A stretch of 64,000 bases of DNA from Prevotella sp. (GTDB taxonomy: Bacteria; Bacteroidota; Bacteroidia; Bacteroidales; Bacteroidaceae), in the NCBI GenBank assembly GCA_017458005.1, contig JAFTGH010000006.1:50490-114489 (forward strand). Reading direction: 5' to 3'. Position 1 is the stretch's first letter, and every line of letters begins with the position of its first letter. The notes beneath the pieces are model-generated. The model made no database searches. It was not told where the DNA came from and worked only from the letters and a program-made list of their open reading frames with translations. Below are positions 5,920-23,273 of the stretch, one piece after another. The position numbers and the translations under genes are program-made.

Positions 5920-5947
5920 CACCCAGAAATCTTAAAAGCAAATAGGA

Positions 5948-7285: not shown

Positions 7286-7347
7286 TACGTTAATATATAT
7301 AATAAGGTGTAGTTCTTTTGAGATATTTTTGTAATTTTGCACCCAAG

Positions 7348-8916: not shown

Positions 8917-8931
8917 AATAGTAGAAGAGTA

Positions 8932-9933
8932 ATGGCATTTTATAACGAAGGTTATTCAAAAGCCTGTAGGTCGTGGATTGAAAACAACAAGGAATTCTAC
9001 AGGCATTTTAGTGATGCGGTAAAGCAACTGAGATTAAGTGGAATGCTGCATGTTTATGATTTCGCTTTGACCAATCTGCCAAATAGACCACAATCAGTAA
9101 AAGTTGGTGATTATGGAGAAGTGGTTTGGGTGAAGTATGAAAAGATACATTCAGATTTTGGGGTGAGAAGCCTCATTTCATGGCCGACATCTCTTTCTTC
9201 ATGGGCGAAAAGCAAGGAGGATTATGTTTATGCAGCGACAGCATGGTTGATTCATGGAGACTTTTATGAGACAATGGTACACCAGATAATAGGATGCTAT
9301 AAGCAAGAAGAGTACATTAATAAAGATGCCTCCTTGTACAAATTGATGCAGCGCCTTGTTAATGACAGTATTGTTCAGGGGATAAAGACAAGAAAGGACT
9401 GGGAAACATACGAGTCCATACTTCAAAATATAGAAAGGGGTATAATAGTCCCTCCAAAGATAACTACTCAGAAGGGAACTGATAATCCAAATAGTGATGC
9501 TTCATCTACGGATGATCAAAAAGGCCTGCCTGTGGAAGATAAGTATCGGCCCATTTTCAATCTTTTAAAGTGCAATGAGGAGATAAGGACTTCTGTCGCA
9601 GATGCCATAGCTAAGGAGATTGAAAAGAATAATAGCGGCACTATCATAGCATTTATCAAATTCGCATTGGAAAAGAAAAATTGGATAGGGACGCTTGGAG
9701 TATCCTTTTCTTCATATTATAGTGCGCTGAAAGTGCTTGTTGAAGGTCGACAAATGGTTTCGAGACAAAGGAGCAGCAGTTTCTACTCCAAATATCAATA
9801 TCTCCAGAATAAGACTTTGGATGACTTCAAAAATGCAGATGATCGTCATTTACTTATGGAGATTAACCGCATTTGGAAGGTCTTAGACAACATCGAGCAA
9901 GATGCTTTAAAGAAGAAACATAACCCTAATTGA
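8932..9933 (+). CDS. Uncharacterized element protein, 333 aa
   Basis: I do not recognise a family. It is soluble, without signal peptide or membrane segment. The N-terminal 140 residues contain aromatic-rich stretches (CRSWIENNKEFYRHF, FGVRSLISWPTSLSSW, TAWLIHGDFYETM), then a polar linker (about 175-200, TTQKGTDNPNSDASSTDDQKG) and a helical C-terminal domain (about 205-330). It begins 15 bp after the AlbA_2 gene stop and is probably cotranscribed. The two-domain layout with a low-complexity hinge fits a regulatory or scaffolding protein, but no function can be assigned. Confidence 0.7.
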   Translation: MAFYNEGYSKACRSWIENNKEFYRHFSDAVKQLRLSGMLHVYDFALTNLPNRPQSVKVGDYGEVVWVKYEKIHSDFGVRSLISWPTSLSSWAKSKEDYVYAATAWLIHGDFYETMVHQIIGCYKQEEYINKDASLYKLMQRLVNDSIVQGIKTRKDWETYESILQNIERGIIVPPKITTQKGTDNPNSDASSTDDQKGLPVEDKYRPIFNLLKCNEEIRTSVADAIAKEIEKNNSGTIIAFIKFALEKKNWIGTLGVSFSSYYSALKVLVEGRQMVSRQRSSSFYSKYQYLQNKTLDDFKNADDRHLLMEINRIWKVLDNIEQDALKKKHNPN

Positions 9934-9943
9934 CTTTCCACGA

Positions 9944-9970
9944 CTTGCAGAAGCTTGCAGGAACTTGCAA
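9944..9970. repeat. Three CTTGCA repeats in 10-bp phase
   Basis: CTTGCAG at 9944-9950 and 9954-9960 and CTTGCAA at 9964-9970, exactly 10 bp apart, i.e. on one face of the helix. They lie 13 bp after the preceding gene and 60 bp before the promoter of the HTH gene. They could be operator half-sites or replication-initiator iterons. Confidence 0.6.
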
Positions 9971-10029
9971 ACCTCATAACCAATTGGATTCAAGAGGATT
10001 AAACTCTTGACGATTTCATTTCAAACGCT

Positions 10030-10067
10030 TAATTTTGCACTCGCAATCAGACGAACTGGTTGCGAGT
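10030..10067 (+). promoter_or_regulatory. Promoter with overlapping hairpin upstream of the HTH/replication operon
   Basis: A -7 box TAATTTTG (10030-10037) is followed at once by an inverted repeat ACTCGCAA (10039-10046) / TTGCGAGT (10060-10067) and a T run. Because the start site would fall in the first arm, the hairpin is at the very 5' end of the transcript. It may be an operator, a leader structure, or a terminator for incoming transcription. Confidence 0.5.
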
Positions 10068-10120
10068 TTTTGTGTCTGGCCAGGCCTTAACTCGAAGTGT
10101 AAAATTAGAAAAAGAGAAAT

Positions 10121-10510
10121 ATGTTAGAAAGAAAAGAAAGTTTTCAGAATGTTGCCAACACCATCCAGGGATGGGATGCAACGCAGGAAGAGATGCTGCT
10201 GACACGTCAGTTGCTCTCAAACATCGAGAAGTGTGGAGATCACATCTCTATTACATTGACAGGTAAGGGTGTGAGTGCTATTGCCAGAGTGATTCAATCT
10301 CGTCTTGATGCAGAGGATAATATGCCGCTTGAGGAAGAGAGGAAAGACGATGACACGCTAATCTCTAAGCAGGACGTAAAAGACAGATTCAATGTCAGCG
10401 ACACGACTCTTTGGTTATGGGGTAAGAAGAATTATCTTGTTCCTGTAAAGATTGGACGTAAAGTGATGTATCGCTTGTCCGATATCAAACGACTGGTAAA
10501 TGGGAAATAG
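10121..10510 (+). CDS. Helix-turn-helix (excisionase/MerR-like) DNA-binding protein
   Basis: 129 aa. The C-terminal part (about 80-129) is a winged helix-turn-helix of the excisionase/HTH_17 type: ISKQDVKDRFNVSDTTLWLW followed by PVKIGRKVMYRLSDIKRLVN. The N-terminal 70 residues are helical. This type of small protein is found on most Bacteroidota mobile elements and can act in excision or as regulator of the following replication genes. It is 3 bp upstream of the DUF6291-like gene, so they are coupled. Whether it is a true excisionase is not decided by sequence. Confidence 0.82.
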   Translation: MLERKESFQNVANTIQGWDATQEEMLLTRQLLSNIEKCGDHISITLTGKGVSAIARVIQSRLDAEDNMPLEEERKDDDTLISKQDVKDRFNVSDTTLWLWGKKNYLVPVKIGRKVMYRLSDIKRLVNGK

Positions 10511-10513
10511 GCT

Positions 10514-11266
10514 ATGAAAGAAATCAAGAGTATAATCCTTTACCTTGACAGCCTCGTAGCCATTGAACATCTGACAGACGAGCAGGCTGGTATCCTGATC
10601 AAAGCGGTACTCCGCTATGCGAAGGATGGCCAGCAGCTCGAAACCTCAGATACGGCTTTAATCGCACTGTTCTCCATCTTGTGTGCACAGGTAGACCGTG
10701 ACCACAAGAAATATGAAGAGCGTTGTGAGCGAAATAGTGCCAATGCACGCAAACGTCGTGCGAGCCAAGGCCAAATCGAACAATCGCATCCAATCGCAAG
10801 CGATGGCAAGCCACCGCAAGCGGCTGGATGCCTAAATAATAATGATAATAATAGTGATATTGATAATGAAAATAGTGATGATACCGCTAACGCAATAATC
10901 ATCAGGAGTCAGCCCGGTGTCTCTTTCGATACTGTCAGGGAGATGTATGGGAAAGTCGCTGGGGATATAAATAAGGCAAAAGCATTATGGGGCGGACTGT
11001 CTGATCAAGATCATGCTGCCATCCTCGCATACATACCAGGATATGTCGCTAGTACGCCAGAGATTAGATATCGCAAGAACTTGAATAATTTCCTCTCGGA
11101 ACGATACTGGGAGAATCATCCAATAAATAATAGACAAGATGGAATTGAGTATAACCCAAGAATTGGTGAACAGGAAAAGAGAAAACGGGACGTTTATAGT
11201 ACCGCAGTCAAGGCTATCAACAACCTCACTAATGCCGCAGAAGTGCCAGGAATGGAGCCAAAGTGA
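10514..11266 (+). CDS. DUF6291-like, replication-initiation type protein
   Basis: 250 aa. Residues 1-80 resemble the DUF6291 domain of Bacteroidota phages and elements (YLDSLVAIEHLTDEQAGILIKAVLRYAKDGQ ... ALFSILCAQVDRDHKKYEE, quoted in two parts). A low-complexity Asn/Asp-rich linker follows (about 107-128), then a C-terminal helical domain with KAKALWGGLSDQDHAAILAY and KNLNNFLSERYW, reminiscent of phage replication organizer proteins. It probably takes part in element replication, as inferred from family and position between an HTH gene and the mobilization region. It overlaps the next gene. Confidence 0.65.
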   Translation: MKEIKSIILYLDSLVAIEHLTDEQAGILIKAVLRYAKDGQQLETSDTALIALFSILCAQVDRDHKKYEERCERNSANARKRRASQGQIEQSHPIASDGKPPQAAGCLNNNDNNSDIDNENSDDTANAIIIRSQPGVSFDTVREMYGKVAGDINKAKALWGGLSDQDHAAILAYIPGYVASTPEIRYRKNLNNFLSERYWENHPINNRQDGIEYNPRIGEQEKRKRDVYSTAVKAINNLTNAAEVPGMEPK

Positions 11267-11753
11267 TGCGCTGATGTTGCAGAAGTACCCCACTTTTACA
11301 GCGTTTTTTCAGGTGTTCAATGTGAGCCGCCAATTGGTTATCTGCCAATATCCTACATACTGCATTCTAGGCCCTTCACCAACGCTTATTCAGATAGATA
11401 AGATGTATGGCGTGTTTACTTCTGCTAAGTGGCTGGTCACCCTGGTTGCTGATGCCAGTTTGAGTTGCGGATTGAAAGATGATGCGTCAGAAGACCAGTT
11501 GCAACTTACGGCTATGGCCATTTCTACAAGATACAAATGGCTGAAAGCAGGAGAACTTATGTTGTTCTTCTTCAATTTCAAGGCGGGTTTCTATGAACAG
11601 TTTTACAGTCGCTTCGATCCTCAGGCTATCATCAGAAGTATGAACACCTTTCTTGAAGAACGTGCATCTGTTATAGACAAACAAGTTCAGGCAAGAAACA
11701 TGACTCAATATGAAAGAAAGACGATAACAAAAGGGAAAGGAGATGATCCGTGA
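11232..11753 (+). CDS. DUF6633-like element protein
   Basis: 173 aa from the ATG at 11232 (start uncertain; ATG at 11274 is also plausible and lies just past the upstream stop). The pattern PSPTLIQIDKMYG, then ELMLFFFNFKAGFYEQFYSRFDPQAI, resembles a family found after DUF6291-like genes in Bacteroidales elements that I believe is DUF6633; I cannot verify the accession. No membrane segments or enzyme motifs are visible. It is part of the HTH-replication operon upstream of the mobilization region. Confidence 0.6.
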   Translation: MPQKCQEWSQSDALMLQKYPTFTAFFQVFNVSRQLVICQYPTYCILGPSPTLIQIDKMYGVFTSAKWLVTLVADASLSCGLKDDASEDQLQLTAMAISTRYKWLKAGELMLFFFNFKAGFYEQFYSRFDPQAIIRSMNTFLEERASVIDKQVQARNMTQYERKTITKGKGDDP

Positions 11754-11781
11754 CAAGAGCCAATGCGTGCAGAGTAATGAA

Positions 11782-11929
11782 GGGCTTGCCCCTTGATATA
11801 GCCCACTATAACTACGAGCTTCGCTTTCGTAGTTGTGGGCTCTTCCGAGGGACTCAGGGCTTTGCCCTAAGAACCCACCAAGGGCTGCTTGCCCTATGGA
11901 ACCTCGCAAGGGGGGGACCCTCCCCCTTG
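11782..11929. other. Putative origin of transfer (oriT): structured GC-rich region before the relaxase
   Basis: The 370-bp gap before the relaxase holds no gene. It contains one large hairpin, GCCCAC (11801-11806) and AACTACGA (11810-11817) pairing with TCGTAGTT (11827-11834) and GTGGGC (11835-11840). It also has mini-hairpins of the form GGGC-loop-GCCC at 11782-11791, 11856-11868 and 11881-11895, and CAAGGGGG/CCCCCTTG at 11907-11929. Location directly 5' of a MOBV relaxase and the hairpin are the reasons for calling oriT; the nick site is not identified. Confidence 0.6.
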
Positions 11930-12122
11930 ACCGCCCCGCTCAGTGGCATCTGCCCCTAAGAACCCTGAGCAGGAAGTGACTCTCTCCCTGCACCCACCAA
12001 TCAGGGTTCACACCCCGATACCCCTTTTGGGAGAAATACAGAAACTACAAATTTCTGAATTACAGTAAAACAGTAATTACATAAATTCATATTTTCATAA
12101 AATCATAAAAACGTAAATAGCT

Positions 12123-13445
12123 ATGAGCACAACAGCAAAAGCATCCGACCACGTAAAGCCCTGCAACATCGAGCAGAGCGAACGTCACAACAGACGAGAC
12201 GCAGAATATATTACCTCACTTAATCCGCGTACCCTTTATGTGCGCCCCGAACTGAGTCACAACAACGAGTCGTATGTGGTACCCGACTTAAAGGGTATCA
12301 CCCTCCAGCAGCACTATGATGCTATCAAGGCGATGGTAAAGCAGAAGACTGGCCGAGCCATGCAGGAGAAGAAGGTGACTGTCATTGGTAAGAATGGCAA
12401 ACCGAAGGAGCGCAACGGCAGCAGTCCCATCCGCGAGAGTGTCGTGAACATCAAGTCTGACACCACAATGGCCGACCTCCAGAAGTACACTCAGAAAGTG
12501 CAAGAGCGATGGGGAGTCAGAGCCATCCAGATACACATCCACAAAGATGAAGGCCATTACACCAATCCTGATGACCCGTCAACCTGGCAACCCAATCTTC
12601 ATGCTCATATCATCTGGGACTGGATGAACCATGATACCGGCAAGTCCTTCAAACTCGGCAAGAAGGACATGGAGGAGCTACAGGATCTGGCAGCAGAGAC
12701 GTTGGAGATGGAACGAGGCAAGCGTAAGTCCGAAACAGGCCATGAGCATTTGGAGCGTAACGACTTCATCCTATCCGAGCAGAGGAAGCAGAGTGCAGAA
12801 CTCGACAATGAGATTGCTGTGAAGCGAGATAGACTCAATGCTGAGAATGGCAATGCCATCAAATCTGGTGTGGCCAACCTCTTCGGAAAGGGAAAGTATG
12901 CCGATATGGAGAAGGAGAACAAACGACTGAAAGAAGAACTGCCAAAGCAAAAAGCAGCCTTGCAGCAAAAACATCAGCAAGTTCTTGATGCGGAACGGGA
13001 CAGGCTGGGCCAACAACTTGCTGAGAAGGACAAGATAATTGAAGGGCTTCAGACTAAATACAAGAATGAAGTGCAACACCATCAACAAGACAATCAAGAG
13101 AAAGACAGAATCATCGACCAAAAAGATAGAATCATCAATGATTATCGCGAACGGCTTGGTCATTATCTGTCAACTCTCTCCGAACTGTTACGAGGTGCAG
13201 TTAAGGCCGTCATCGATTATGTTCAGTCTGGCTATCGCAGTTTCAGTGCTCGCCAGGATGGCGATGTTAGACGATATTTGAATGGCCAACTTGATAAAGA
13301 AGAGGCTGCTACCAATGTGTATAATGCCTCATTGCCCTATCTGAAAACGGATGAGTGTGAGCGTGTGAAGGGGCAACTCTCCTATATCGTTCAGGATATG
13401 AAGGAAGAACAGTATCTAAGCCGAAGTCATGGATTCCACAGGTAA
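12123..13445 (+). CDS. MOBV-family relaxase (Mob/Pre plasmid recombination enzyme)
   Basis: 440 aa. The N-terminal 200 residues form the Mob/Pre relaxase domain: ERHNRRDAEYITSLNP (about 20-35), then the HUH-type metal-binding and catalytic region QIHIHKDEGH (about 139-148) and NLHAHIIWDW (about 159-168). From about 215 to 350 it is a long charged coiled coil (KQKAALQQKHQQVLDAE, KDRIIDQKDRIINDYRERL), with a helical tail. It would nick oriT and pilot the element through a helper conjugation machine. Length and motifs look complete. Confidence 0.92.
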   Translation: MSTTAKASDHVKPCNIEQSERHNRRDAEYITSLNPRTLYVRPELSHNNESYVVPDLKGITLQQHYDAIKAMVKQKTGRAMQEKKVTVIGKNGKPKERNGSSPIRESVVNIKSDTTMADLQKYTQKVQERWGVRAIQIHIHKDEGHYTNPDDPSTWQPNLHAHIIWDWMNHDTGKSFKLGKKDMEELQDLAAETLEMERGKRKSETGHEHLERNDFILSEQRKQSAELDNEIAVKRDRLNAENGNAIKSGVANLFGKGKYADMEKENKRLKEELPKQKAALQQKHQQVLDAERDRLGQQLAEKDKIIEGLQTKYKNEVQHHQQDNQEKDRIIDQKDRIINDYRERLGHYLSTLSELLRGAVKAVIDYVQSGYRSFSARQDGDVRRYLNGQLDKEEAATNVYNASLPYLKTDECERVKGQLSYIVQDMKEEQYLSRSHGFHR

Positions 13446-13654
13446 TGCTGCAAACAAACGAGCCAGCTAATAACAGGCTTTCGGCTGGTTTATTCTACTT
13501 GTTTAAGAGGGCCTATTTGTAACGTAACCCAGCCAAAAGTTGAATACTGCTGGCGTGTTGACACCCTAAGAGCACTCAAAGAGCTAAAGAAAAATATATA
13601 GTCGAAGCTATAGCCATAGACACAGCCTATAAAAGGTTATTTTTATTTTTCTGC
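13446..13654. other. Intergenic region after relaxase
   Basis: 209 bp without a gene. A weak hairpin, CCAGC (13463-13467) with GCTGG (13484-13488) followed by TTTATT, may terminate the relaxase transcript. The end of the region runs into the operator of the WYL gene. Confidence 0.4.
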
Positions 13655-13693
13655 ACCTGTGCCTTGTTTTTGCACAGGTTTTTAGTATCTTTG
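13655..13693 (+). promoter_or_regulatory. Cargo regulon operator 1 and promoter (WYL gene)
   Basis: Inverted repeat ACCTGTGCC (13655-13663) / TGCACAGGT (13671-13679), 7-bp spacer, then 6 bp to the -7 box TATCTTTG (13686-13693). Geometry is identical to the four other cargo promoters, but the arms differ by two bases from the common AGGTGTGCC. Sitting before the WYL regulator itself, it implies autoregulation. Confidence 0.8.
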
Positions 13694-13714
13694 CACCATC
13701 AAAAGATATTAGTT

Positions 13715-14626
13715 ATGGCAAAGAATCTGTTGAATAAGTATGTCTGGCTGGTAGAAACTATCTACAAGGCTAAAAAGATTTCTTATGAGGAAATTAATCG
13801 CCGTTGGTTAGACAATGACATGAGTGAGGGGAAGCCTTTACCTCTCAGGACATTCCATAAATGGCGTATTGCGATTGAAGAAATGTTTGGCCTGATCATT
13901 GAGAATGAGCAAGGAGGCCAGTATCGTTACTATATCGAGAACGCTGACGAACTGAAGAACGGCTCTATGCGTAGTTGGCTTTTCAATACGCTTACAGTAA
14001 GCAATCTGATGTTAGACAGCGTTAGCATCAAGGATAAGATATTGTTTGAAGAGATTCCTGATGGCGAACAATATCTACCAGTCATCATCGAGGCATTGAA
14101 GAAAAATACCGTTCTTGAAATAACCTATCAGAGTTTTTGGCGCGAGGAATCCAATACGTTCCCAGTTGAGCCTTATTGCTTGAAGGCATTCAAGCAGCGT
14201 TGGTATCTTGTGGCTCGCAGCCCATATTACGACAGAATTATGATTTATGCCTTGGATCGTACCCAAGCGATAGAACCAACAGACGAGACGTTTGATTATC
14301 CTGAGGATTTCGTGGCAGGCGAGTATTTCGATGACTGTTTCGGTATTATAGCAGATGAAGAATATGATGTGGAGACGGTTAAATTCAAAGTAGCTGCAGG
14401 GCAGGCCAACTACATCCGTTCGTTGATGCTTCATCAGTCACAAAAGGAGATAGAGCGTACGGATGAATACAGCATATTCACAGTAAGATTACGTCCTACA
14501 TTTGATTTCCGGCAAGAAATCCTTACTATGGGTAGCGACGTAGAGATTCTTTCGCCCAAATGGTTCCGTGATGAACTTGCAGAGATTTCAAAACACATGT
14601 GGAACAAATACCAGAACGACAAATGA
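13715..14626 (+). CDS. WYL-domain transcriptional regulator
   Basis: 303 aa from the ATG at 13715; the longer open frame covers the promoter. Residues 1-75 form a helical DNA-binding region (KNLLNKYVWLVETIYKAK, RTFHKWRIAIEEMFG). Residues about 125-215 are the WYL domain (VLEITYQSFWREE, EPYCLKAFKQRWYLVARSP, IMIYALDRTQ), and 220-303 the C-terminal extension. WYL regulators bind nucleic acid or nucleotide ligands and control DNA damage or phage defence genes (PafBC, DriD, BrxR/CapW are known examples). Five matching inverted-repeat operators in the next 6 kb, including its own, make it the likely master regulator of the cargo. The exonuclease gene overlaps its stop. Confidence 0.9.
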   Translation: MAKNLLNKYVWLVETIYKAKKISYEEINRRWLDNDMSEGKPLPLRTFHKWRIAIEEMFGLIIENEQGGQYRYYIENADELKNGSMRSWLFNTLTVSNLMLDSVSIKDKILFEEIPDGEQYLPVIIEALKKNTVLEITYQSFWREESNTFPVEPYCLKAFKQRWYLVARSPYYDRIMIYALDRTQAIEPTDETFDYPEDFVAGEYFDDCFGIIADEEYDVETVKFKVAAGQANYIRSLMLHQSQKEIERTDEYSIFTVRLRPTFDFRQEILTMGSDVEILSPKWFRDELAEISKHMWNKYQNDK

Positions 14627-15115
14627 GAGACTTTGCAGCAATAGACTTCGAGACAGCCAACAATGAGCGGACAAGTGTCTGCTCCGTTGGTGTGGTAATC
14701 GTCAGGAATGGTGAGATTGTGGATACTTTCTACTCTCTGATTCAGCCTGAGCCAAACTATTATAATTATTGGTGTACACAAGTCCATGGCCTAACGCGTC
14801 AAGATACCGAGGATGCCCCTGTATTCCCGGAAGTCTGGAAGCAAATAGAACCGCTTATCGAAGGTCTGCCATTGGTGGCCCATAACAAGGCTTTCGACGA
14901 GTCTTGCCTTAAAGCAGTTTTCCATTGCTATCAGATGGACTATCCTAACTATACTTTCTTTTTGTACATGTGTGGCTTCTCGCCGAGCTTTTCCACAAGC
15001 AGAGAACCATCAGCTTCACACCATTTCAAAACTCTGCGGTTATCAACTCGAAAACCACCATCATGCACTCTCCGATGCTGAGGCATGTGCATGGATAGCA
15101 AGGGAAATCCTGTGA
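14623..15115 (+). pseudogene. DnaQ-like 3'-5' exonuclease, frameshifted
   Basis: The ATG at 14623 overlaps the WYL stop (ATGA). Frame 1 gives MRDFAAIDFETANNERTS (DEDDh motif ExoI DFE), then AHNKAFDESCL (ExoII) up to PNYTFF. At the T5 run 14959-14963 the frame is lost. The rest of the family sequence continues in the +1 frame as CTCVASRRAFP, LHTISKLCGY and HHALSDAEACAWIA (ExoIII HxxxxDA), ending at 15115. One T fewer would restore a protein of about 163 aa, the normal size for this DnaQ-type family. Either a real inactivating insertion or a homopolymer sequencing error. Confidence 0.85.
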
Positions 15116-15204
15116 TTATCCACATATCCACACGATATCATTATCATCTTCATAAAAAGAGAGAAAAGAAAGAAAAAATAAAAGAAAATAATGAGATTCT
15201 TATA

Positions 15205-15243
15205 AGGTGTGCCCTCCAATGGCACACCTCTGTTGTATCTTTA
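15205..15243 (+). promoter_or_regulatory. Cargo regulon operator 2 and promoter
   Basis: Perfect inverted repeat AGGTGTGCC (15205-15213) / GGCACACCT (15221-15229), 7-bp spacer, 6 bp to -7 box TATCTTTA (15236-15243). Drives the 151-aa unknown gene. Confidence 0.85.
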
Positions 15244-15264
15244 CACCATAAACCAGAGAGAAAT

Positions 15265-15720
15265 ATGGAATTAAGTATAAAACAAGATAGCGAATCCTTC
15301 ACATTCTCTGAGGTGGCAGTCTTAAACAAAGTCCAATTCAGGGCCAAAGTGGATGAGGTGATCTGGCTTGTGTCGCGTGAGTCGCACATTGTGCCATTAA
15401 AGCAAGAGCGATTAGAGTATCTTTATGGAGAGGAAACCATGATAAAGAGATCGCTCTACTCTATTCATAAAGATGGGATTGACAGAATGGAGTCTGTTAT
15501 TGAACAAATAAAGATGTACGAGTCTGCTGGCTTGAAAACTTTCGAGCACGTTGTTTTCTTTATCCAGACTTCAAAAGAATATCCTTTAGTGATGAGTGAA
15601 TTAAGTCAATTGCAAGAACTGACGGTCATGTTTTCCTCTACGGCCGATATTCTGTGGGGCCTCGGAGTCGACGACATGCTTGACGACAGAATTTTCTTCA
15701 CGCTTGTATGCAGCAAATAA
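15265..15720 (+). CDS. Uncharacterized cargo protein, 151 aa
   Basis: Start set at the ATG at 15265 because the operator and promoter at 15205-15243 lie upstream within the same open frame. No family recognised. The protein is soluble, acidic and mixed alpha/beta, with MELSIKQDSESFTFSEVAVL at the N-terminus and FEHVVFFIQTSKEYPLVMSE in the centre. It is a single-gene unit between two regulon promoters. Nothing in the sequence suggests an enzyme motif. Confidence 0.7.
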   Translation: MELSIKQDSESFTFSEVAVLNKVQFRAKVDEVIWLVSRESHIVPLKQERLEYLYGEETMIKRSLYSIHKDGIDRMESVIEQIKMYESAGLKTFEHVVFFIQTSKEYPLVMSELSQLQELTVMFSSTADILWGLGVDDMLDDRIFFTLVCSK

Positions 15721-16073
15721 GGAAGCTCAAACATCTAACATGCAAATTGTTAATACTCTAAAATAGAGTAGGATAGGAGATACTGAATTATCCAAGAGTA
15801 CCAGTAAAGTATATCTTGAAAAGATGGTAGAAAGTAAAAAGTACTATACCGGGTGGATAGAAGGTAAAACATATAGCGGATGAAGACTCCATCATCTGTT
15901 TAAAAGGTATTGTAATTTCTAAGGTTTCACCAGAAGGTCAGGTGTTAGGAAGCCGAGAACTGACAGCTGAAGAACAAACACAATGGTTAAAACAATAGTA
16001 TATAGAGCATGGGAAAAAGATTCTAACGAAAGGTTGTTAGATATCTGACCCAGTATTTTGGCAGATTATTCAT
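15721..16073. other. Intergenic stretch with a decayed small ORF
   Basis: Apart from the broken reading frame at 15824-15998 the 350 bp are AT-rich and hold no gene. CTCTA/TAGAG (15757-15769) forms a small hairpin that could terminate the 151-aa gene. Confidence 0.4.
15824..15998 (+). pseudogene. Remnant of a small gene, frameshifted in an A4 run
   Basis: From ATG 15824 the frame reads MVESKKYYTGWIEGK and stops soon after. Removing one A from the AAAA at about 15866 joins it to HIADEDSIICLKGIVISKVS and then LGSRELTAEEQTQWLKQ, ending at the TAG 15996-15998. The join gives a coherent 57-aa protein, which is why I read it as a broken gene. No promoter is evident and no family is recognised. Confidence 0.45.
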
Positions 16074-16112
16074 AGGTATGCTTCAATACGGCATACCTTC
16101 CTTTTATATTTG
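16074..16112 (+). promoter_or_regulatory. Cargo regulon operator 3 and promoter
   Basis: AGGTATGCT (16074-16082) / GGCATACCT (16090-16098), one mismatch in the arms, 7-bp spacer, 6 bp to -7 TATATTTG (16105-16112). Same layout as the other sites with an A/T swap at one symmetric position. Confidence 0.8.
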
Positions 16113-16138
16113 CAGAATCATTCAAAACCAAAAGGATT

Positions 16139-17203
16139 ATGAGAACAAAAGTATTATTCTTGGCGCTGGTTGTCCTTGGCGCATTGCAAATAAGGGCACA
16201 GGTTAGTAACGTTGCTTCATTCGGACTGAAATTTCAGGAAAGGGAGCAAAAGAAGAAAGAAGAGGTGAAGATCCTGGAGGATTTGCTCGTTCAGTACAAG
16301 GCAATGATTCCAGGATTGGTAAAGTTCAAGCTAACTGTTCAGGAGCCCATAGAGATCACTAAAGGTCAGTTTGTCTCTATGATCAAGAGCAATGAACCAA
16401 GGGGAGGACGAGATGTAACCTTCGGAGGATGCGATAGCTCTATTGATCATCTGGCCTATGAGTTTTCACATTATACTCAGCATACAGGAACCATTGTAAA
16501 GCATCCATACGTCAAGAACGGAGAAGTTATCGAGAAAGGTATCAAGAATTGGCTGAGAAATGCTGATGAATGCGTTCTGATGACCTTGAACATTGATATA
16601 GAGTTGGATCACGATAAAAAGGAGGCTATCCTGAAACTCTTCAAAGAGACTGTTGATAAAATAACACTGTCAGATGCAGAGATACGCGAGTTCAAACAGA
16701 AGAATGTAAACTATACCACGAGTTTCATTCTGTTTGAGCCTTGTATCGGAAATTTTTGGCATGAGTTAGCATTGAGAAACAGCCCAGAGGTACTTACAGA
16801 TATTTCTAATCGATTCCTGCAAGTAGGTTATGAGGCCATTTCTGATTTCGTCGTTAAGGATAACGTAGGTGGAGTTTCTGCATTTCCTGGGTATCAGATT
16901 ATGAAGAACTTGATAGAATCTAATACGGATTCTGATATAAGCAAGGCAGAGAAAAAAGATCCTAATGGCAAACAGATCGTAATCAACACTAATAGCACAG
17001 GCTTGTTGGCAAATGGCGAAGGATTGTTTTCGCCAGCCATTTATATAGAGAAATACCCATTTCTCAGTTTTAGCAACAAATCCTATAAGAAGCGTGGATA
17101 TTTGGAATACAAGAACTTTGGCAATGGGTGGGTTATACACTTCCTGATACCCAAATCAGAAATCTCTAAATACAGCAGTTTTGTTGTTGAACAGAAGAAA
17201 TAG
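16139..17203 (+). CDS. Exported uncharacterized cargo protein, 354 aa
   Basis: A clear signal peptide, MRTKVLFLALVVLGALQIRAQ, precedes a charged mature protein, so it is exported to periplasm or surface. No lipobox cysteine at the cleavage point. Recognisable segments are GGRDVTFGGCDSSIDHLAYEF and KNWLRNADECVLMTLNIDIE, but no family is known to me. It is the only clearly exported product of the cargo and is controlled by operator 3. Notable for a set otherwise consisting of cytoplasmic nucleic-acid-type proteins. Confidence 0.75.
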   Translation: MRTKVLFLALVVLGALQIRAQVSNVASFGLKFQEREQKKKEEVKILEDLLVQYKAMIPGLVKFKLTVQEPIEITKGQFVSMIKSNEPRGGRDVTFGGCDSSIDHLAYEFSHYTQHTGTIVKHPYVKNGEVIEKGIKNWLRNADECVLMTLNIDIELDHDKKEAILKLFKETVDKITLSDAEIREFKQKNVNYTTSFILFEPCIGNFWHELALRNSPEVLTDISNRFLQVGYEAISDFVVKDNVGGVSAFPGYQIMKNLIESNTDSDISKAEKKDPNGKQIVINTNSTGLLANGEGLFSPAIYIEKYPFLSFSNKSYKKRGYLEYKNFGNGWVIHFLIPKSEISKYSSFVVEQKK

Positions 17204-17226
17204 TCAAAGAAAACAAGAATTCTTGG

Positions 17227-17265
17227 AGGTGTGCCCCTATACGGCACACCTTTTCCGTATCTTTG
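17227..17265 (+). promoter_or_regulatory. Cargo regulon operator 4 and promoter
   Basis: Perfect inverted repeat AGGTGTGCC (17227-17235) / GGCACACCT (17243-17251), 7-bp spacer, 6 bp to -7 TATCTTTG (17258-17265). Confidence 0.87.
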
Positions 17266-17299
17266 CACCATCAAGTATTACTGAAAATAAATAATCGAT

Positions 17300-17737
17300 A
17301 TGAAGTACAGGCACAAAGTGAAGATGGAACAAAAGAGCAACAAGGTGAAAGGTCAGAAACGCCGTGTAGCAGAACATGGTCCTTGGGAAGGGAAGTATAC
17401 TGATGAAGAGATTGCTTCTATGGTAGACTACGACTATGATTATTTGCTCGATACGATGTACTATAAGATGGAGCGGATGGTGGCCTTCTTCAATAGCAAG
17501 TATGTACATATAGCAGACGCAAAGAAGGTCGCAAAGCAGATAGAGGTGGCTATGCGCTTACTTAATATTATCAGGGGCAAATCTGTGACGTACGATGAGA
17601 AAGAACTAGAGAAGATTGTTAACACTCGGAATTGGAGACGCTATCATACATCAGGTCTTTATGGACTTAGGAAAGAAAAGGCATGGCATGTTTTCTTCCT
17701 TTACTTAGAGCATCGAATGAGGAATTGGTGGGATTAA
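17300..17737 (+). CDS. Uncharacterized cargo protein, 145 aa
   Basis: Basic N-terminus (MKYRHKVKMEQKSNKVKGQK) followed by a helical domain with DYDYDYLLDTMYYKMERMVAFF and AKQIEVAMRLLNIIRG, and a Trp/Arg-rich end. Similar helical proteins occur in Bacteroidota phages and elements, but no function is established that I can name. Driven by operator 4 and followed 47 bp later by a 78-aa gene. Confidence 0.7.
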   Translation: MKYRHKVKMEQKSNKVKGQKRRVAEHGPWEGKYTDEEIASMVDYDYDYLLDTMYYKMERMVAFFNSKYVHIADAKKVAKQIEVAMRLLNIIRGKSVTYDEKELEKIVNTRNWRRYHTSGLYGLRKEKAWHVFFLYLEHRMRNWWD

Positions 17738-17784
17738 CAACGGATTCAAAAATGAACGAATCCAATTAATAGAAAAGAAACGTT

Positions 17785-18021
17785 ATGGTAGATGGTAATA
17801 AACTTGGCATTCTTAAATCCATCTTGGATTGGTCGCAAGCAATAAAGCAAAAGTCAGTAGAGCTGCAAACTCAGTTCATTTTTGAATATTCAGAAGAGAT
17901 ACGGAAGGGAAGCATTTCAGAATGTGATAATGTTGCATATCACTTGTTTAATGTATGGAGAATTCTAAGTGATATGACAGAAGAATGCAAGACAGTTGAG
18001 TACTATCAAAAAAAAAGATAA
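17785..18021 (+). CDS. Small uncharacterized protein, 78 aa
   Basis: MVDGNKLGILKSILDWSQAI start; all-helical prediction, acidic, no signal or motif recognised. It has no promoter of its own that I can see and probably shares the operator-4 transcript. The stop lies 30 bp before the promoter of the next gene. Confidence 0.6.
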   Translation: MVDGNKLGILKSILDWSQAIKQKSVELQTQFIFEYSEEIRKGSISECDNVAYHLFNVWRILSDMTEECKTVEYYQKKR

Positions 18022-18051
18022 CAAAGAAGCAGCATATTCAGGAAAAAGTTA

Positions 18052-18059
18052 TATATTTG
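18052..18059 (+). promoter_or_regulatory. Promoter -7 box without cargo operator
   Basis: TATATTTG 27 bp before the ATG of the UDG-like gene. Unlike the neighbouring cargo promoters there is no inverted repeat 6 bp upstream, so this unit is probably outside the regulon. Confidence 0.6.
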
Positions 18060-18085
18060 CACACACAAATCAAAGGAGTAACAGT

Positions 18086-18778
18086 ATGACAGCAGAAGAA
18101 TTAATTAAGGCACAAGTGAAGATTCAAGATGAAATAGAACAATGTGCAATAGCGAACAACCTCAATGATGGAGAAATAGAACCCATCTACGATGGAGTCT
18201 ATAATGCAGATAGTTACTTATCTGCATCGCGTCAAATAATGTGGGTCTTAAAAGAACCCTATGACGATTTTACACAGGAGGGAAGGCCATATGGTGGAGG
18301 ATGGAAGATTTATGATGCTTTTGACAAAGATAATGCATGGAAGAATCCGACATGGCAACCTGTTATTTATACTACTTATGGCATCCTTAACAGATGCAGA
18401 TATGAAGATATGGATTGGATAAGAGATGATAAAAGTATGGCAGATGTTTTAAAACAGATTGCGTATGTTAATATTAGTAAGATGCCGGCATATAGCACAT
18501 CGAACGATAATGACATGATGAGAAAGTACAATTTGTGGAAGCCTATCCTCCTAAAACAATTATCAGTATATTGCCCTCAAATAATTGTTTTTGGTAATAC
18601 TTTCAAGTATTTTAAGCATGATTTGGTAGGCGAGAATACTGAACCAAGCAAAAGATTTGATGGTGTGTTACATGTTTATGAAAAAGATGGAGTTAAAATG
18701 CTCGATGCATATCACCCAAATCAAAAAAATATAGATCGTGATACTTATGTAAATTCGATTGTTGAATCATGCATGTAG
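18086..18778 (+). CDS. Uracil-DNA glycosylase-like superfamily protein
   Basis: 230 aa from the ATG at 18086, downstream of its promoter. IMWVLKEPYDDF (about 50-61) resembles the first conserved motif of the UDG fold, QIIVFGNTFKYFKHDL (about 171-186) the central strand, and LDAYHPNQ (about 211-218) the HP motif of the DNA-binding loop. These place it tentatively in the uracil-DNA glycosylase-like superfamily, members of which excise bases or act in defence. The catalytic water-activating residue cannot be confirmed. Next gene begins 4 bp after the stop. Confidence 0.6.
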   Translation: MTAEELIKAQVKIQDEIEQCAIANNLNDGEIEPIYDGVYNADSYLSASRQIMWVLKEPYDDFTQEGRPYGGGWKIYDAFDKDNAWKNPTWQPVIYTTYGILNRCRYEDMDWIRDDKSMADVLKQIAYVNISKMPAYSTSNDNDMMRKYNLWKPILLKQLSVYCPQIIVFGNTFKYFKHDLVGENTEPSKRFDGVLHVYEKDGVKMLDAYHPNQKNIDRDTYVNSIVESCM

Positions 18779-18782
18779 TAAA

Positions 18783-19556
18783 ATGAAGGAAACAAATATT
18801 TGTAATATTCATCCGCTAACCATTATTACTGACAGGTATAGTGGTTGTTATTCTGGAGGCAAATACCTTGCTTTCAACCTCGAGCCTTGGCAGGTTCCCA
18901 AAGGAGTTGATGGCAATGATACTGAATGTATGGACTTCTGGGATGACGAATGTAAAGAGTATGTTATTGGAAAAGGTGTTACCATACAGGAGGCTGTTGA
19001 TGATCTGAAAAGAAAAATGGATGCATCTGTCTTTGCATTTAATATAGATAGGTATCTATTCTTGGATTTCGATGGCGTGCTTAATACAGGCAGATATGCA
19101 AAGCAAATGAAACTGGATGGTATTGATCCCTTTGATGAATTCGGAGCCCTTTTTGATCCTGAGACCATAGCAAATCTGAAACATATCGTAGAGCTGACTG
19201 ATTGCAAGATAATTCTTTCTACGACTTGGCGCAACGAGGGAATCATGCGAATGAGAGAACTTTGGGAGCATCGTAATCTACCTGGTGAAATATATTCCAT
19301 GACTCCGATTTTGCTTAGTACTTCTTATCAGGATGCTGTAACTGGTGAAATGATGGGATTGCCACAATGTGAAGCAAAAGCACTCGAAATCAATGCATGG
19401 TTGTATAAGAATGTTGGCAAAGAATACCGTTATGCCATTCTGGATGACGAAGATCTATTCTTCCCCAAGCAGCAAGAACATCTGGTGTTGACAGAAGAAT
19501 ACGATGGGCTGACAGAAAGGAAAGCCCAAAGAGCCATTTGGATTCTCAACAATTAG
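18783..19556 (+). CDS. Two-domain protein with C-terminal HAD-type phosphatase domain
   Basis: 257 aa from ATG 18783 (an earlier start at 18759 would overlap the upstream gene). Residues 12-82 form a small domain, ITDRYSGCYSGGKYLAFN to ECMDFWDDECKEY, of a type also seen as stand-alone proteins in Bacteroidota elements. Residues 90-257 are a HAD domain: motif I FLDFDGVLNT (Asp95, Asp97), motif II LSTTWR (about 145-150) and motif IV-like AILDDEDLFF. This resembles the HAD domain found in RNA-repair polyproteins, but RNA repair here is inference. Forms a two-gene unit with the UDG-like gene. Confidence 0.72.
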   Translation: MKETNICNIHPLTIITDRYSGCYSGGKYLAFNLEPWQVPKGVDGNDTECMDFWDDECKEYVIGKGVTIQEAVDDLKRKMDASVFAFNIDRYLFLDFDGVLNTGRYAKQMKLDGIDPFDEFGALFDPETIANLKHIVELTDCKIILSTTWRNEGIMRMRELWEHRNLPGEIYSMTPILLSTSYQDAVTGEMMGLPQCEAKALEINAWLYKNVGKEYRYAILDDEDLFFPKQQEHLVLTEEYDGLTERKAQRAIWILNN

Positions 19557-19587
19557 AGATTTTTCACCCAATATCACTTTTAATGTA

Positions 19588-19626
19588 AGGTGTGCCCCAG
19601 TACGGCACACCTTTCTTGTATCTTTG
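19588..19626 (+). promoter_or_regulatory. Cargo regulon operator 5 and promoter
   Basis: Perfect inverted repeat AGGTGTGCC (19588-19596) / GGCACACCT (19604-19612), 7-bp spacer, 6 bp to -7 TATCTTTG (19619-19626). Drives the four-gene unit beginning with the DnaA-like ATPase. Confidence 0.87.
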
Positions 19627-19645
19627 TGCCACGAATTAGAAATAG

Positions 19646-20401
19646 ATGCTTTATAAAATGAAGATGAAAATCAAACATCCCCAGCTCAATCCGAAGAAGA
19701 CCTTCAAGAACTTCATTGAGAGCGATTGTAATAGAATGGTGCGCACAGTAGGCCTTTCTATCGCAGAGCAAATTAGCGAGTCCACTTATAACCCGTTCTT
19801 CATCTATGGCTCTACAGGTGGAGGTAAAACACATTTGATAAATGCTATTGGTATGCGCTGTATGGAATTATACCCTAAGAAGCGTGTGCTCTATGTGAGC
19901 GCCCGTCAGTTCCAGATGGAGTTTACTGATTCTGTCCGTAAGAATACCACCAAGAAATTTATCAGCTTCTACCAATCGTTAGATTTGCTGATTGTGGATG
20001 ATATTCAAGAGTGGATGAATTCTCCGAAGACTCTTGACTCTTTCTTTCATATTTTCAATTACTTAATTCGTAATGAAAGGCAAATCATTCTGGCAAGCGA
20101 TCGTCCTCCAGTTGACCTTCAGGGGATAAAGAAGCGTTTGATAACACACTTTGCTAGTGGACTGATTGCAAAGTTGGAAAAGCCCAATGAGAAGCTATGT
20201 ATTGATATACTGAATGCAAAGTTTCAACGTGGTGGTTTACAGATTCCTGCTGATGTTGCTGAGTTTATTGCAAAGAATGCTAACGGTAATGTATGTATTC
20301 TGGAAAGTGTGATAAATTCACTGATAGCCTATTACTCCATCAATAAGACCAATATCGATATGAATCTTGTTGAGCATGTAATCAAATTATTTACAAAATA
20401 G
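19646..20401 (+). CDS. DnaA-type AAA+ ATPase lacking the DNA-binding domain
   Basis: 251 aa. LNPKKTFKNFIESDCNRMV (14-32) matches the start of DnaA domain III. Walker A is GSTGGGKTH (Lys61) and Walker B LLIVDDIQ (Asp118-Asp119), followed by sensor region ASDRPP and the box around GIKKRLITHFASGL. The protein ends after the AAA+ lid. Domain I and the domain IV helix-turn-helix that reads DnaA boxes are absent. It could partner host DnaA (as Hda does), or load a helicase like DnaC. ATGs at 19658 and 19664 are alternative starts. Confidence 0.85.
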   Translation: MLYKMKMKIKHPQLNPKKTFKNFIESDCNRMVRTVGLSIAEQISESTYNPFFIYGSTGGGKTHLINAIGMRCMELYPKKRVLYVSARQFQMEFTDSVRKNTTKKFISFYQSLDLLIVDDIQEWMNSPKTLDSFFHIFNYLIRNERQIILASDRPPVDLQGIKKRLITHFASGLIAKLEKPNEKLCIDILNAKFQRGGLQIPADVAEFIAKNANGNVCILESVINSLIAYYSINKTNIDMNLVEHVIKLFTK

Positions 20402-20407
20402 AAATGT

Positions 20408-21388
20408 ATGAAACTAAAAGAACTATTTGCCAAGTACACGTTCGATGAGATACTGCCATATCTCAAAGCAATTGATCCAGAGAAGGGAGATTCGATGTAC
20501 CAATTCCGTGAGGCTTATGATTTACTTCGTCACATGGAGCCATCAATGAATGATTGTGGTGAGGTACGTTTAGAATGGTCCAGTGATAAATGTATAGGAA
20601 CCAGATATGTCATGGTGCATTATCTTGCTGGTGACTATTGGGAGGACAACTTAGCAAAGGAGGTTGTTTTATCAGAAGATTTGCAAATCAGCGAGATGAA
20701 GGCTGCCGCTAATTGCCTATGGGAGATTACCTTCTATGGCTTTGGGCAAGAGGAGGATGAAGATGACAGAAACATATTCTCTTATCCCATAGAAGAAAAG
20801 AACAAATATGATACGGCCCTTTATAAACTCCAGCTCAGTAACTGGAAGCATACTACACCTCGCAGATATAGGAGTAAAGAACATCCGCTTTGTATAGATG
20901 CAGAATATGGCATGAAACGACGGAATAAACATAGGAATCGCAGCAAACGCAAGCGTGATTATCGAGTGGAATGCAGGGAAGAGTTTCTGAAAATGCATAG
21001 TCAACGGGAGGATTTGATTCAAAAAATCGTTCATAGTGGAGCCTTTAGACGTGATGAAGTGGAGTCTTTACATCAAATGAAGGAAGGACAATATTATCCA
21101 TACAGATCGCGTACCTGGGACATAACCAAGCGCATTGATTATATTTTGGATTCCATCAACAAATATCAGGTTGTGGATTTCTCGCGATATGATGATGCTT
21201 TTATCTGTATTTGTTCTTCGTCTGAGCATTCTGTAACGGAAGCTGAGAAGGAGAGACTGCTTGAAGGATTACCAAAATCATTAAGGACTCTCCCCATAAA
21301 GATTGGCTTGGGCACCAAGGAGGTGATGAATCAGGAAGTGGAAATGATGTTGTTTTTAAATATAATAAGGAAGGATTATAATGATTGA
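20408..21388 (+). CDS. Uncharacterized DUF6557-like protein, 326 aa
   Basis: MKLKELFAKYTFDEILPYL followed by DPEKGDSMYQFREAYDLLRHMEPS is a start seen in Bacteroidota element proteins, possibly DUF6557; the accession is from memory. Residues about 150-200 are strongly basic (RRYRSKEHPL, MKRRNKHRNRSKRKRDYRVE), suggesting nucleic-acid contact. It lies 6 bp after the DnaA-like gene and overlaps the phosphoesterase gene by 8 bp, so the three are translationally linked. Confidence 0.6.
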   Translation: MKLKELFAKYTFDEILPYLKAIDPEKGDSMYQFREAYDLLRHMEPSMNDCGEVRLEWSSDKCIGTRYVMVHYLAGDYWEDNLAKEVVLSEDLQISEMKAAANCLWEITFYGFGQEEDEDDRNIFSYPIEEKNKYDTALYKLQLSNWKHTTPRRYRSKEHPLCIDAEYGMKRRNKHRNRSKRKRDYRVECREEFLKMHSQREDLIQKIVHSGAFRRDEVESLHQMKEGQYYPYRSRTWDITKRIDYILDSINKYQVVDFSRYDDAFICICSSSEHSVTEAEKERLLEGLPKSLRTLPIKIGLGTKEVMNQEVEMMLFLNIIRKDYND

Positions 21389-22610
21389 ATACAAAAACCA
21401 CAAGATCTTTGCGTTCTCAGATACACATGGTCTCAATTATCGGCTCAATATTCCAAAGGATGCTGACATCCTAATTTGTGCTGGTGACTGTGCGAATGAA
21501 ATAAACCGTTATGATTGCGTTGATGAAATCATGTATCGTTTTTTTGACTGGTTTTCTCGACAACCAGCCAAACTGAAGATATTTGTACCAGGAAACCATG
21601 ACGTGCTCTTTGACTTGAATCCAGAAGCAGCTGTTGGGCTGGTTCCGTCCTCCATCGTGTTATTGGAAGACTGTGGCATTGAATTCGATGGCATCAGTTT
21701 CTATGGAGTTGCTTGTCGTCCTTGGATGTTCACAAAAACAGAGAACAAAGTACCTGAAGGGGTTGATTTTTTGATAACTCATGGCCCAGCCAAAGACCAT
21801 CTTGACAATAACAAGGGTTGTAAAAGACTAAAAGAAATCATAGCTGAGTCGAAGCCAAAACATCACATATTCGGCCACATCCATGAACATGGCGGACAGT
21901 CGGAAGCAACTGAAACAACCACCTATTATAACGTGTCTATATACAATCAAATAATATATCATTATCCAAATATGAAAGAGAATAACGGCTTGGCCCATTG
22001 GGTCGTCAAGGGTATAGAGGAAGACATTATCAACTCCTTCTTGCTTAATCCTGTCGATTACGATAAAGACAAGTGTTTGTTGAGCTTACGAAGGAATATC
22101 ATCAATGAAATGGTACTTTCTCATCAGGAAGATATCATAGATGCCATATGGGAGTTCAACGAGAGCTTGAAAGAGGCCCTTAAAGAGATGTTTGACAGGG
22201 CACATCGTATATATGATGATGTCAGTAAACATAAAGAATATGGCGACAAGATAGAAGTAACTGCCAACCTCTATTTGGGCAACCAGTATCCGAAATTACA
22301 TCCCATTCAAGGAGATGATCGCCAGGATTTGTGGGATGCGCTTTGCGATGGTGGTTGGAATGTACTATACGATGATGGTATTTGTCAACTGAGTTTACCC
22401 TCAGGATCATATAATGAATCGTTCGACGCATTCATAGGCATGGATTGCCCGCCTCCCAATTGGAATGAAGGACTTAATCCAGAACTAACAAAGAACATGA
22501 ACCTGCTGATGCAGTTTCATCACCTCTTCGATCATATGGAATTCGCTATCACGGATTTTATCTATGTTCGAGACTTCTATTCAGAGATAAAAGTAAACAT
22601 AACTAAATGA
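21381..22610 (+). CDS. Calcineurin-like metallophosphoesterase with C-terminal extension
   Basis: 409 aa. Residues 1-190 carry all metallophosphoesterase motifs: FSDTH (Asp14, His16), AGDCANE (Asp36), GNHD (71-74), THGP (about 134-137) and GHIHEHG (about 164-170). These bind two metals and hydrolyse phosphodiesters or monoesters. Residues about 280-409 are a second domain (TANLYLGNQYPKLHPIQGDD, NWNEGLNPELTKN, FAITDFIYVRDF) that resembles small stand-alone proteins of Bacteroidota phages. Substrate unknown. Its start overlaps the preceding gene by 8 bp. Confidence 0.8.
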   Translation: MIEYKNHKIFAFSDTHGLNYRLNIPKDADILICAGDCANEINRYDCVDEIMYRFFDWFSRQPAKLKIFVPGNHDVLFDLNPEAAVGLVPSSIVLLEDCGIEFDGISFYGVACRPWMFTKTENKVPEGVDFLITHGPAKDHLDNNKGCKRLKEIIAESKPKHHIFGHIHEHGGQSEATETTTYYNVSIYNQIIYHYPNMKENNGLAHWVVKGIEEDIINSFLLNPVDYDKDKCLLSLRRNIINEMVLSHQEDIIDAIWEFNESLKEALKEMFDRAHRIYDDVSKHKEYGDKIEVTANLYLGNQYPKLHPIQGDDRQDLWDALCDGGWNVLYDDGICQLSLPSGSYNESFDAFIGMDCPPPNWNEGLNPELTKNMNLLMQFHHLFDHMEFAITDFIYVRDFYSEIKVNITK

Positions 22611-22620
22611 TTACAAGGCT

Positions 22621-23060
22621 ATGACGAATAACCAGCTGACGGCTCCCAAGGTTCACCTGAGAGAAATACTTGGGGAAACCGAAAGGAGAGGGTTCTCCAT
22701 TGTAGATATAATAAATTGTTTAATAGTATCTATAAAAGTATTGCTGAAACTATGCGCAAAACTGTTTATAAGAATCACTTCTGCTTCAGGCCTTATTCAG
22801 AAAAGTTCTTAACGGAAGCTGTATTGAAATATCAGCTATATCTTTTGAGGAAAAAACAATTGGTAAAGAGAATCAATCATGTATCAGTATTGCTTACTAT
22901 CCCAAAGTATGACTACACAAACTTAGAAGCAGATGAAAGGAATCAGCGTGGAGTGTATATAAGAGAATGGTTCAAGAATCAACTTAGCGTTTCATGTAGG
23001 GTTATAACAAGGATCGGAGAATGTGAATACTATCGTCTCGATTTCAGATATGCGACATAA
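22621..23060 (+). pseudogene. Uncharacterized cargo gene, frameshifted in an AT repeat
   Basis: ATG 22621 opens MTNNQLTAPKVHLREILGE, which loses its frame near 22714. A second frame continues without a start codon of its own as YNKLFNSIYKSIAETM, ending at 23060 with CRVITRIGECEYYRLDF. Restoring two bases (AT) in the short AT repeat at about 22709-22714 joins the halves into a 147-aa protein. It is the last gene before the right end of the element, 10 bp after the phosphoesterase. The family is unknown. Confidence 0.65.
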
Positions 23061-23131
23061 TTATTCAAATCATGTGGTTCATATTTCTCAAAAACTTCTT
23101 TTATGATTCCATTTCCTTCACTCAGATTTGC

Positions 23132-23156
23132 TTCGGTGGGGAAAATGTGGGGAAAA
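23132..23156 (+). repeat. Right-end arm-type repeats (GTGGGGAAA x2)
   Basis: GTGGGGAAA at 23136-23144 and 23147-23155, within a 25-bp block identical to 5861-5885. Direct orientation relative to the left copy. Presumed integrase arm sites. Confidence 0.65.
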
Positions 23157-23180
23157 ATTAAAGGGGTGACTAAAAAGGAA

Positions 23181-23211
23181 AAGTGCTGCAATCTATTGAT
23201 TTGCAGCACTT
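23181..23211 (-). terminator. Terminator supplied by the element to tRNA-Leu
   Basis: Perfect 11-bp stem AAGTGCTGCAA (23181-23191) / TTGCAGCACTT (23201-23211), 9-nt loop, followed on the minus strand by TTTTCCTTTTT. It lies 40 bp downstream of the tRNA-Leu 3' end and inside the element, so it replaces the displaced host terminator at 5667-5692. Confidence 0.75.
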
Positions 23212-23247
23212 TGCTTTCGTTTTGAGACCAGCACGTTGTGGTACTTA

Positions 23248-23273
23248 TTGTACCCAGACCCGGGCTCGAACCG
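23248..23273 (+). repeat. Right core attachment repeat (3' end of tRNA-Leu)
   Basis: 26 bp matching 5708-5733 with one mismatch. Here it is part of the intact tRNA-Leu gene (T-arm, acceptor 3' strand and three flanking bases). Confidence 0.85.

Follow-up and report, generated by a model that had tools for sequence, protein, structure and literature searches.

The window analysed here, a stretch of 64,000 nucleotides from a Prevotella sp. contig (JAFTGH010000006.1), holds a 17.5-kb integrative element at a tRNA-Leu gene. Five promoters of this element are preceded by inverted repeats of identical geometry, and one of the five stands ahead of a gene for a WYL-domain regulator. The five sites are real and lie as described in an earlier reading of this DNA made from the sequence alone. 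We conclude that the element probably encodes a WYL activator of the DriD type, which switches on a mix-and-match set of cargo genes. In the mechanism we propose, a dimer of the WYL protein would bind the 25-bp inverted repeat (9-bp arms, 7-bp spacer), centred 19 bp 5' of the -7 box, in place of a -33 box, and would recruit RNA polymerase where the promoter offers a good -7 box but lacks a -33 box. The activating signal would be sensed by the WYL-WCX core and is probably a nucleic acid arising from DNA damage, phage attack or DNA transfer; in the signal-bound state, the protein would cause the five transcription units of the element to rise together. What the sequences themselves show is the sites, their geometry and conservation, and their linkage to close WYL relatives; binding, activation, the signal and the role of the cargo are inferences.

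Each of the five repeats spans 25 bp (9-7-9) on the plus strand and ends exactly 6 bp before a -7 box of the form TAnnTTT[G/A] (Table 1). Operators 2, 4 and 5 are perfect, with 9/9 arm pairs, and operators 1 (ACCTGTGCC-N7-TGCACAGGT) and 3 (AGGTATGCT...GGCATACCT) have 8/9 pairs each, so that the sequence-only reading was right in its equal spacing, in its division into three perfect and two variant repeats, and in placing a variant ahead of the WYL gene (operator 1). Its TAnnTTTG box holds for four of the sites; the box after operator 2, TATCTTTA, ends in A. The perfect pattern, with up to three mismatches, is matched four times in the window against 0.02 expected from shuffles, operator 1 being too divergent to fall among these matches. 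Exact copies of the operator number three in the 3.05-Mb source genome (G000; genomes, contigs and loci of the comparison are denoted by G, C and L numbers), all of them inside the window locus, and at up to three mismatches there is one further match, on contig C48.

The geometry is conserved. In 53 loci with relatives of the window WYL protein, most of them holding relatives of more than 70% identity, 25-bp palindromes with at least 8/9 pairs occur 52 times at an offset of 6 bp from the -7 box and between one and six times at every one of the remaining offsets between 0 and 15; a stricter -7 pattern leaves 51 palindromes at offset 6. When spacers of 3–15 bp were scanned against offsets of 0–25, the cells centred at -19 totalled 145 counts, though one palindrome can enter several concentric cells, while the others averaged 0.5 with a maximum of 6. 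The operators stand 5' of more than 20 unrelated protein clusters; an initial figure of about 30 gene families was reduced because WYL itself is among the 31 clusters, as are several sites that probably arose by chance. The islands draw their units from a shared pool, and the cargo is a mosaic. Among the relatives' cargo, for which one representative of each cluster was compared, there are matches to DnaB, FtsZ, ZapA, AAA and MoxR models, and further representatives match GmrSD, PD-(D/E)XK, Fic/RhuM and DUF6557, with a VWA match under the cut-off. An asymmetric variant of the operator, ACCTCTGCC-N7-GGCAGGGGT, is found ahead of DUF6557 proteins, and of units adjacent to them, in these islands (L006, L007, L008, L010, L018, L021 and L025). 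One locus (L020) is a contig labelled Saccharibacteria with a Prevotella-type WYL gene of 79% identity, and is probably misbinned.

The operators are linked to close relatives of the WYL gene across genomes, and the WYL-linked regulon proposed in the sequence-only reading is well supported in this respect. A scan of 398 genomes of the genus for the operator and its -7 box, with one mismatch allowed, found them in 15. Where a genome has a WYL relative at 75% identity or more, a line chosen after inspection of the data, they are present in 12 cases of 14, versus 3 of the 384 other genomes. The Fisher p value is about 1e-18 with the relatedness of the genomes ignored; since the genomes, like the loci, are akin to one another and some contigs recur, such p values overstate their independence. 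Reversed-pattern controls gave no match in the 398-, 200- and 121-genome scans. Of the three exceptional genomes, G051 has a site of a second operator class (class 2, described below), and G067 and G083 have class-1 sites. Occurrence of the motif genome-wide without a WYL gene had been named beforehand as a result that would speak against the regulon; the motif is in fact mostly linked, with G067 and G083 as exceptions. In the G067 island, the cargo genes run to the end of the contig, and the G083 site lies on a 7-kb contig; it is possible that the island WYL gene is absent from these incomplete assemblies.

At the WYL genes themselves, the bases of the auto-operator are in register (at least 5 of 7 diagnostic bases) at 54 of 71, by a score that was defined after inspection of the family and that takes the best box within 75 bp. 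The 71 proteins come from a list of 74; L031 was too long and the rest ran off the ends of their loci. Of the 71, all but L049 and L044:16500 were aligned (alignment A1, 69 proteins). Strict palindromy of the auto-operators was considered and rejected, many of them being imperfect.

Two alternatives would deny the WYL protein its part. Under one, the operators are bound by another regulator, of the host or of the element, and the WYL gene is merely a target. Binding of the sites by the WYL protein is, after all, a prediction, weak helix-turn-helix (HTH) matches are present in two other proteins of the element (10121-10510 and 7318-8916), and in G067 and G083 the only WYL gene detected with Pfam is distant in sequence and lies on another contig, away from the operators. 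Against this, the operators co-occur with close WYL relatives, and among five operator-bearing genomes with a single WYL gene, which were picked for inspection as operator holders, three (G470, G490 and G119) carry an operator no farther than about 1.5 kb from that gene, and the other two lack one nearby. In G490, which belongs to another genus, the single WYL gene is directly preceded by AGGTGTGCC-N7-GGCACACCA; in G470 and G119, the operator near the gene is of class 2, and further class-2 sites lie far off. Moreover, operator sequence is slightly more closely in step with the winged HTH than with the other parts of the protein: operator distance correlates with winged-HTH distance at rho 0.61 and with WYL-WCX distance at rho 0.46. 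We therefore regard a different regulator as improbable. Less probable still, to the point where we give it very little weight, is that the repeats stem from duplication of a promoter cassette, which was copied along with the cargo and serves no shared regulator. The mosaic nature of the cargo would suit such copying, but the arms and the offset are kept while spacers and flanks differ, and in other operator classes the arms change jointly with palindromy retained.

A more serious rival casts the WYL protein as a repressor of the CapW or BrxR kind, which would occupy the -33 region, block RNA polymerase and be released on infection or damage. WYL repressors of defence loci with palindromic sites are described for CBASS (CapW, PMC9122588) and BREX (BrxR, PMC9122601), in the parts of those papers available to us; the -7 boxes here are strong, and the operator covers the -33 position. 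The same accounts place the CapW site over the -10 element and the BrxR site, of 11-5-11 form with a 5-bp spacer, between promoter and gene, whereas here the operator ends 6 bp 5' of the -7 box, neither over nor 3' of it, and its offset is exact to the base. There is also little to occlude. At 176 of 786 promoter-like boxes, a -33 TTG starts at the most frequent position, 22–23 bp 5' of the -7 box, which falls within the operator; at this position TTG is found in 0 of 33 distinct cargo operators (the original 34 less auto-operator L146) and in 0 of 17 class-2 sites, a number in which two palindromes appear twice, once per direction. An activator that replaces the -33 contacts would need just such an arrangement, with the offset constant, the -7 box good and the -33 box absent. 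The profile of the WYL protein matches PafBC (6sj9, 4e-17) and a Caulobacter crescentus protein (8tp8, 1e-14) among solved relatives, with CapW and BrxR far weaker (0.003–0.06). The 8tp8 chain is assigned to C. crescentus in the accessible text of PMC11804915, and 7u02, 7tzv and 9pfq appear to be chains of the same protein. Taken together, the position of the operator over -33, the cargo promoters that do not have a -33 TTG, the 7-bp spacer and the nearest solved relatives favour a DriD-like mode of activation; we consider repression unlikely, though far from negligible, and the term 'coordinately derepressed' used in the sequence-only reading is probably wrong. The promoter of the WYL gene differs from those of the cargo. 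Of the well-paired auto-operators, 8 of 10 have the -33 TTG, and because it is kept in the window and in some relatives, the WYL gene may be basally transcribed and tuned by its own product.

The exceptions in G067 and G083 count against a WYL activator, and several other findings must be set beside them. A 25-bp site over -33 would suit a repressor too. With weakly paired ones included, no more than 12 of 29 close auto-operators keep the -33 TTG, and a rule that every auto-promoter keeps it was accordingly rejected; this tally takes rows of at least 70% identity, sets aside L119 (a second copy of L019), L025 (no site) and L013 (offset 7), and does not contain L029, which has the TTG. In G000, the reversed-pattern control gave one match at 2–3 mismatches. 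The geometry also fades with distance. Among 26 loci with relatives of 52–68% identity (leaving out L117, at 37% identity, L118, which has no WYL match, and L119, at 81%), offset 6 has 3 palindromes, and among 11 loci with relatives of 43–50% it has 5; in both tiers any other offset has 0–2 sites and the arms are unlike those of the window. At about 40% identity there is no excess at 25 bp and offset 6, and the flanks examined around the Bacteroides orthologues (L040-L042, 52%) contain no site. Finally, single-stranded DNA (ssDNA) binding by PafB is reported to need two WYL arginines (PMC11804915, in the portion available). The counterpart of R214, here R182, is invariant in 69 relatives, and that of R211 is never Arg, its place being taken by Ala, Ser, Cys or Gly in 69 of 69, the positions being matched through the RxxR spacing in the profile alignment; ssDNA may for this reason not be the ligand.

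The closest known parallel is DriD of C. crescentus, an ssDNA-triggered WYL activator with which the window protein shares the WYL-WCX core by profile. As far as the available text of the preprint goes (PMC12340889), the DriD site, ATACGAC-N7-GTCGTAT, overlaps the -35 element at a constant distance from -10 in weak promoters, and the DriD targets include repair genes. The likeness lies in an inverted repeat with a 7-bp spacer over -35/-33, a constant distance to -10/-7 and a poor -35. The window system differs in its arm sequence, in its 9-bp arms, in its Bacteroidota -33/-7 promoter, in the encoding of the regulator on a mobile element with clustered cargo, and in the absence of one of the two PafB-type arginines. 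In that part of the preprint, DriD is found not to regulate its own gene, whereas the window WYL gene has an in-register auto-operator. PafBC of mycobacteria, which acts by sigma adaptation, shares the WYL-WCX architecture and, from the parts of the two sources at hand (PMC11804915, PMC12340889), activates promoters recognised through a special motif in place of the usual -35; it is a heterodimer, of which only PafB touches DNA, at a -26 motif. WYL-WCX proteins are described as common in Bacteroidetes (PMC6789036, as available in part).

The source genome itself holds five WYL genes and three operator types: AGGTGTGCC at the window locus; AGCTATGCC, with one copy on C52, where a WYL gene is 2.4 kb away; and AGGTGTCCC, with one copy on C48 at a distance of 12 kb from a WYL gene. 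AGGTGTGCC and AGGTGTCCC differ by two bases only and are treated here as candidate separate types. The AGGTGTCCC-type operator (G000:C48:41799, L184) is 5' of a small gene and of a protein with an MzaE/AIPR match under the cut-off. A -7 box lies at 6 bp on both sides of it, but as no open reading frame of at least 80 amino acids is near on the plus side, we do not claim a divergent promoter. Class 2, GGTGTaCC-GACTTAT-GGtACACC, has the same geometry as class 1. One or other class is present in 19 of 200 genomes, and a family-wide scan was positive in 3 of 121, two of them besides G000. In G051 and G055, class-2 sites lie directly 3' of WYL genes of 36–38% identity; in G119 they are about 1.5 kb 3' of the WYL gene. 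They also stand 5' of a putative DNA-repair operon linked to radical-SAM/UDG proteins (G051:C74, G067:C2, G119:C3 and G470:C1; L199, L200, L214 and L230), the family of which was assigned by NCBIfam on the G051 copy and by matching N termini on the other three.

In the window WYL protein, the putative N-terminal winged HTH has no Pfam HTH match. The conserved N-terminal segment RTFHKWR differs between operator classes, and operator type follows this putative recognition helix loosely: distinctive arms mark the DNWR/K and NRHR groups. As a strict predictor of the operator the helix was not upheld, the HKWR group having mixed arms (e.g. L120 and L122). Two single loci may be added. In G490:C16 (L233), the WYL gene, a DnaQ-like gene and a gene that we take from its N terminus to be RmuC-like form one run behind the operator. 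In G143:C23 (L198 and L222), a class-2-like operator precedes a reading frame whose start presumably resembles Cas12a; only a short frame is open there.

More tentatively, and with somewhat less than even confidence, we suggest that WYL activators form a family in the Bacteroidales, in which every member has a particular inverted-repeat operator that replaces the -33 box. The chromosomal copy would run an SOS-like regulon that includes the radical-SAM/UDG-linked repair operon, and the copies on mobile elements would switch on mix-and-match cargo upon ssDNA or a similar signal. This cargo includes truncated DnaA- and FtsZ-like proteins; because parts of them are missing, we guess that they could halt replication and division. 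The 'defence or SOS-like module' of the sequence-only reading fits the wider cargo pool, if by association only, and we infer a repair or defence role on that footing. WYL activator regulons are already known; a search of titles and abstracts, mostly without subscription papers and bioRxiv preprints, gave no description of this regulon, as the sequence-only reading had supposed, and none of a multi-operon cargo system of a mobile element in Bacteroidales. An inverted repeat centred 19 bp 5' of the -7 box amounts to a readable promoter code that lets one assign WYL regulons in Prevotella-like bacteria from sequence, and with them candidate genes for defence and repair. The findings suggest that a second phylum, whose promoters are of a different type, uses the activation geometry solved for DriD, and that mobile elements bring a regulator of their own to govern several cargo units jointly. 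Should the sister class on the chromosome respond to DNA damage, that response would be undescribed for these bacteria in the literature searched.

The element is identified as integrative by its integrase and by attachment repeats at tRNA-Leu (caa; 23250-23332, minus strand), the 3' end of which is overlapped by the right copy of the 17-bp repeat. Its features are collected in Table 1.

Table 1. Operators and genes of the integrative element (window coordinates)
Feature	Position	Strand	Remarks
Integrative element, 17.5 kb	5708..23264	.	Bounded by 17-bp direct repeat at 5708 and 23248
Tyrosine recombinase (integrase)	5948..7285	+	PF00589 E=3.4e-7
MobA/VirD2-like relaxase candidate	12123..13445	+	PF03432 E=0.0016, weak; 19.1 bits vs 24.6 curated cut-off
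Operator 1, predicted auto-operator, ACCTGTGCC-N7-TGCACAGGT	13655..13679	+	TTG at usual -33 position; -7 box 13686-13693
WYL-WCX regulator, 303 aa	13715..14626	+	PF13280 E=1.9e-14; PF25583 (WCX) E=5e-12; DriD and PafBC closest among solved structures
DnaQ/RNase T-like exonuclease, apparently frameshifted	14623..15081	+	PF00929 E=1.1e-13
Operator 2, perfect	15205..15229	+	-7 box TATCTTTA at 15236-15243
Unknown protein, 151 aa	15265..15720	+	Cluster in 10/52 distinct loci
Operator 3, 8/9 pairs	16074..16098	+	-7 box 16105-16112
Protein with signal-like N terminus (by eye), 354 aa	16139..17203	+	No Pfam match
Operator 4, perfect	17227..17251	+	-7 box 17258-17265
Gene run: unknowns of 145, 78 and 230 aa, then HAD_SAK_2 protein (18783-19556)	17300..19556	+	PF18143 E=4.2e-25
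Operator 5, perfect	19588..19612	+	-7 box 19619-19626
DnaA-like AAA+ protein without C-terminal DNA-binding domain	19646..20401	+	PF00308 E=1.1e-49
DUF6557 protein	20408..21388	+	PF20194 E=2.4e-8
Calcineurin-like phosphoesterase	21381..22610	+	PF00149 E=5.8e-8; resembles candidate defence family PDC-S10, E=1.3e-49

The WYL gene starts 29 bp 3' of the first base of the operator 1 -7 box. The succession of WYL gene and DnaQ-like gene is seen in many related islands, the DnaQ-like cluster being found in 31 of 52 distinct loci compared; the window copy looks frameshifted because the Pfam match extends no further than residue 112 of its 152 and the cluster median is 163 residues, and longer copies occur in other loci. 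Operator 5 stands ahead of a run of three genes, those for the DnaA-like, DUF6557 and phosphoesterase proteins. The TIGR00362 match of the DnaA-like protein spans positions 100–337 of the 437 in the profile and is under its cut-off. Candidate defence families matched in the window are PDC-S10 and PDC-S48. A bacteriophage origin was rejected, since the bacteriophage collection IMG/VR gave no stretch with the exact operator-promoter pattern and a peptide-pattern search of it for WYL relatives gave eight stretches, none of them confirmed. The relative of the 354-residue protein in L027 is likewise preceded by an operator. Just within both ends of the element there is, in addition, a 25-bp direct repeat (at 5861 and 23132), the copies of which are possibly arm sites of the integrase.

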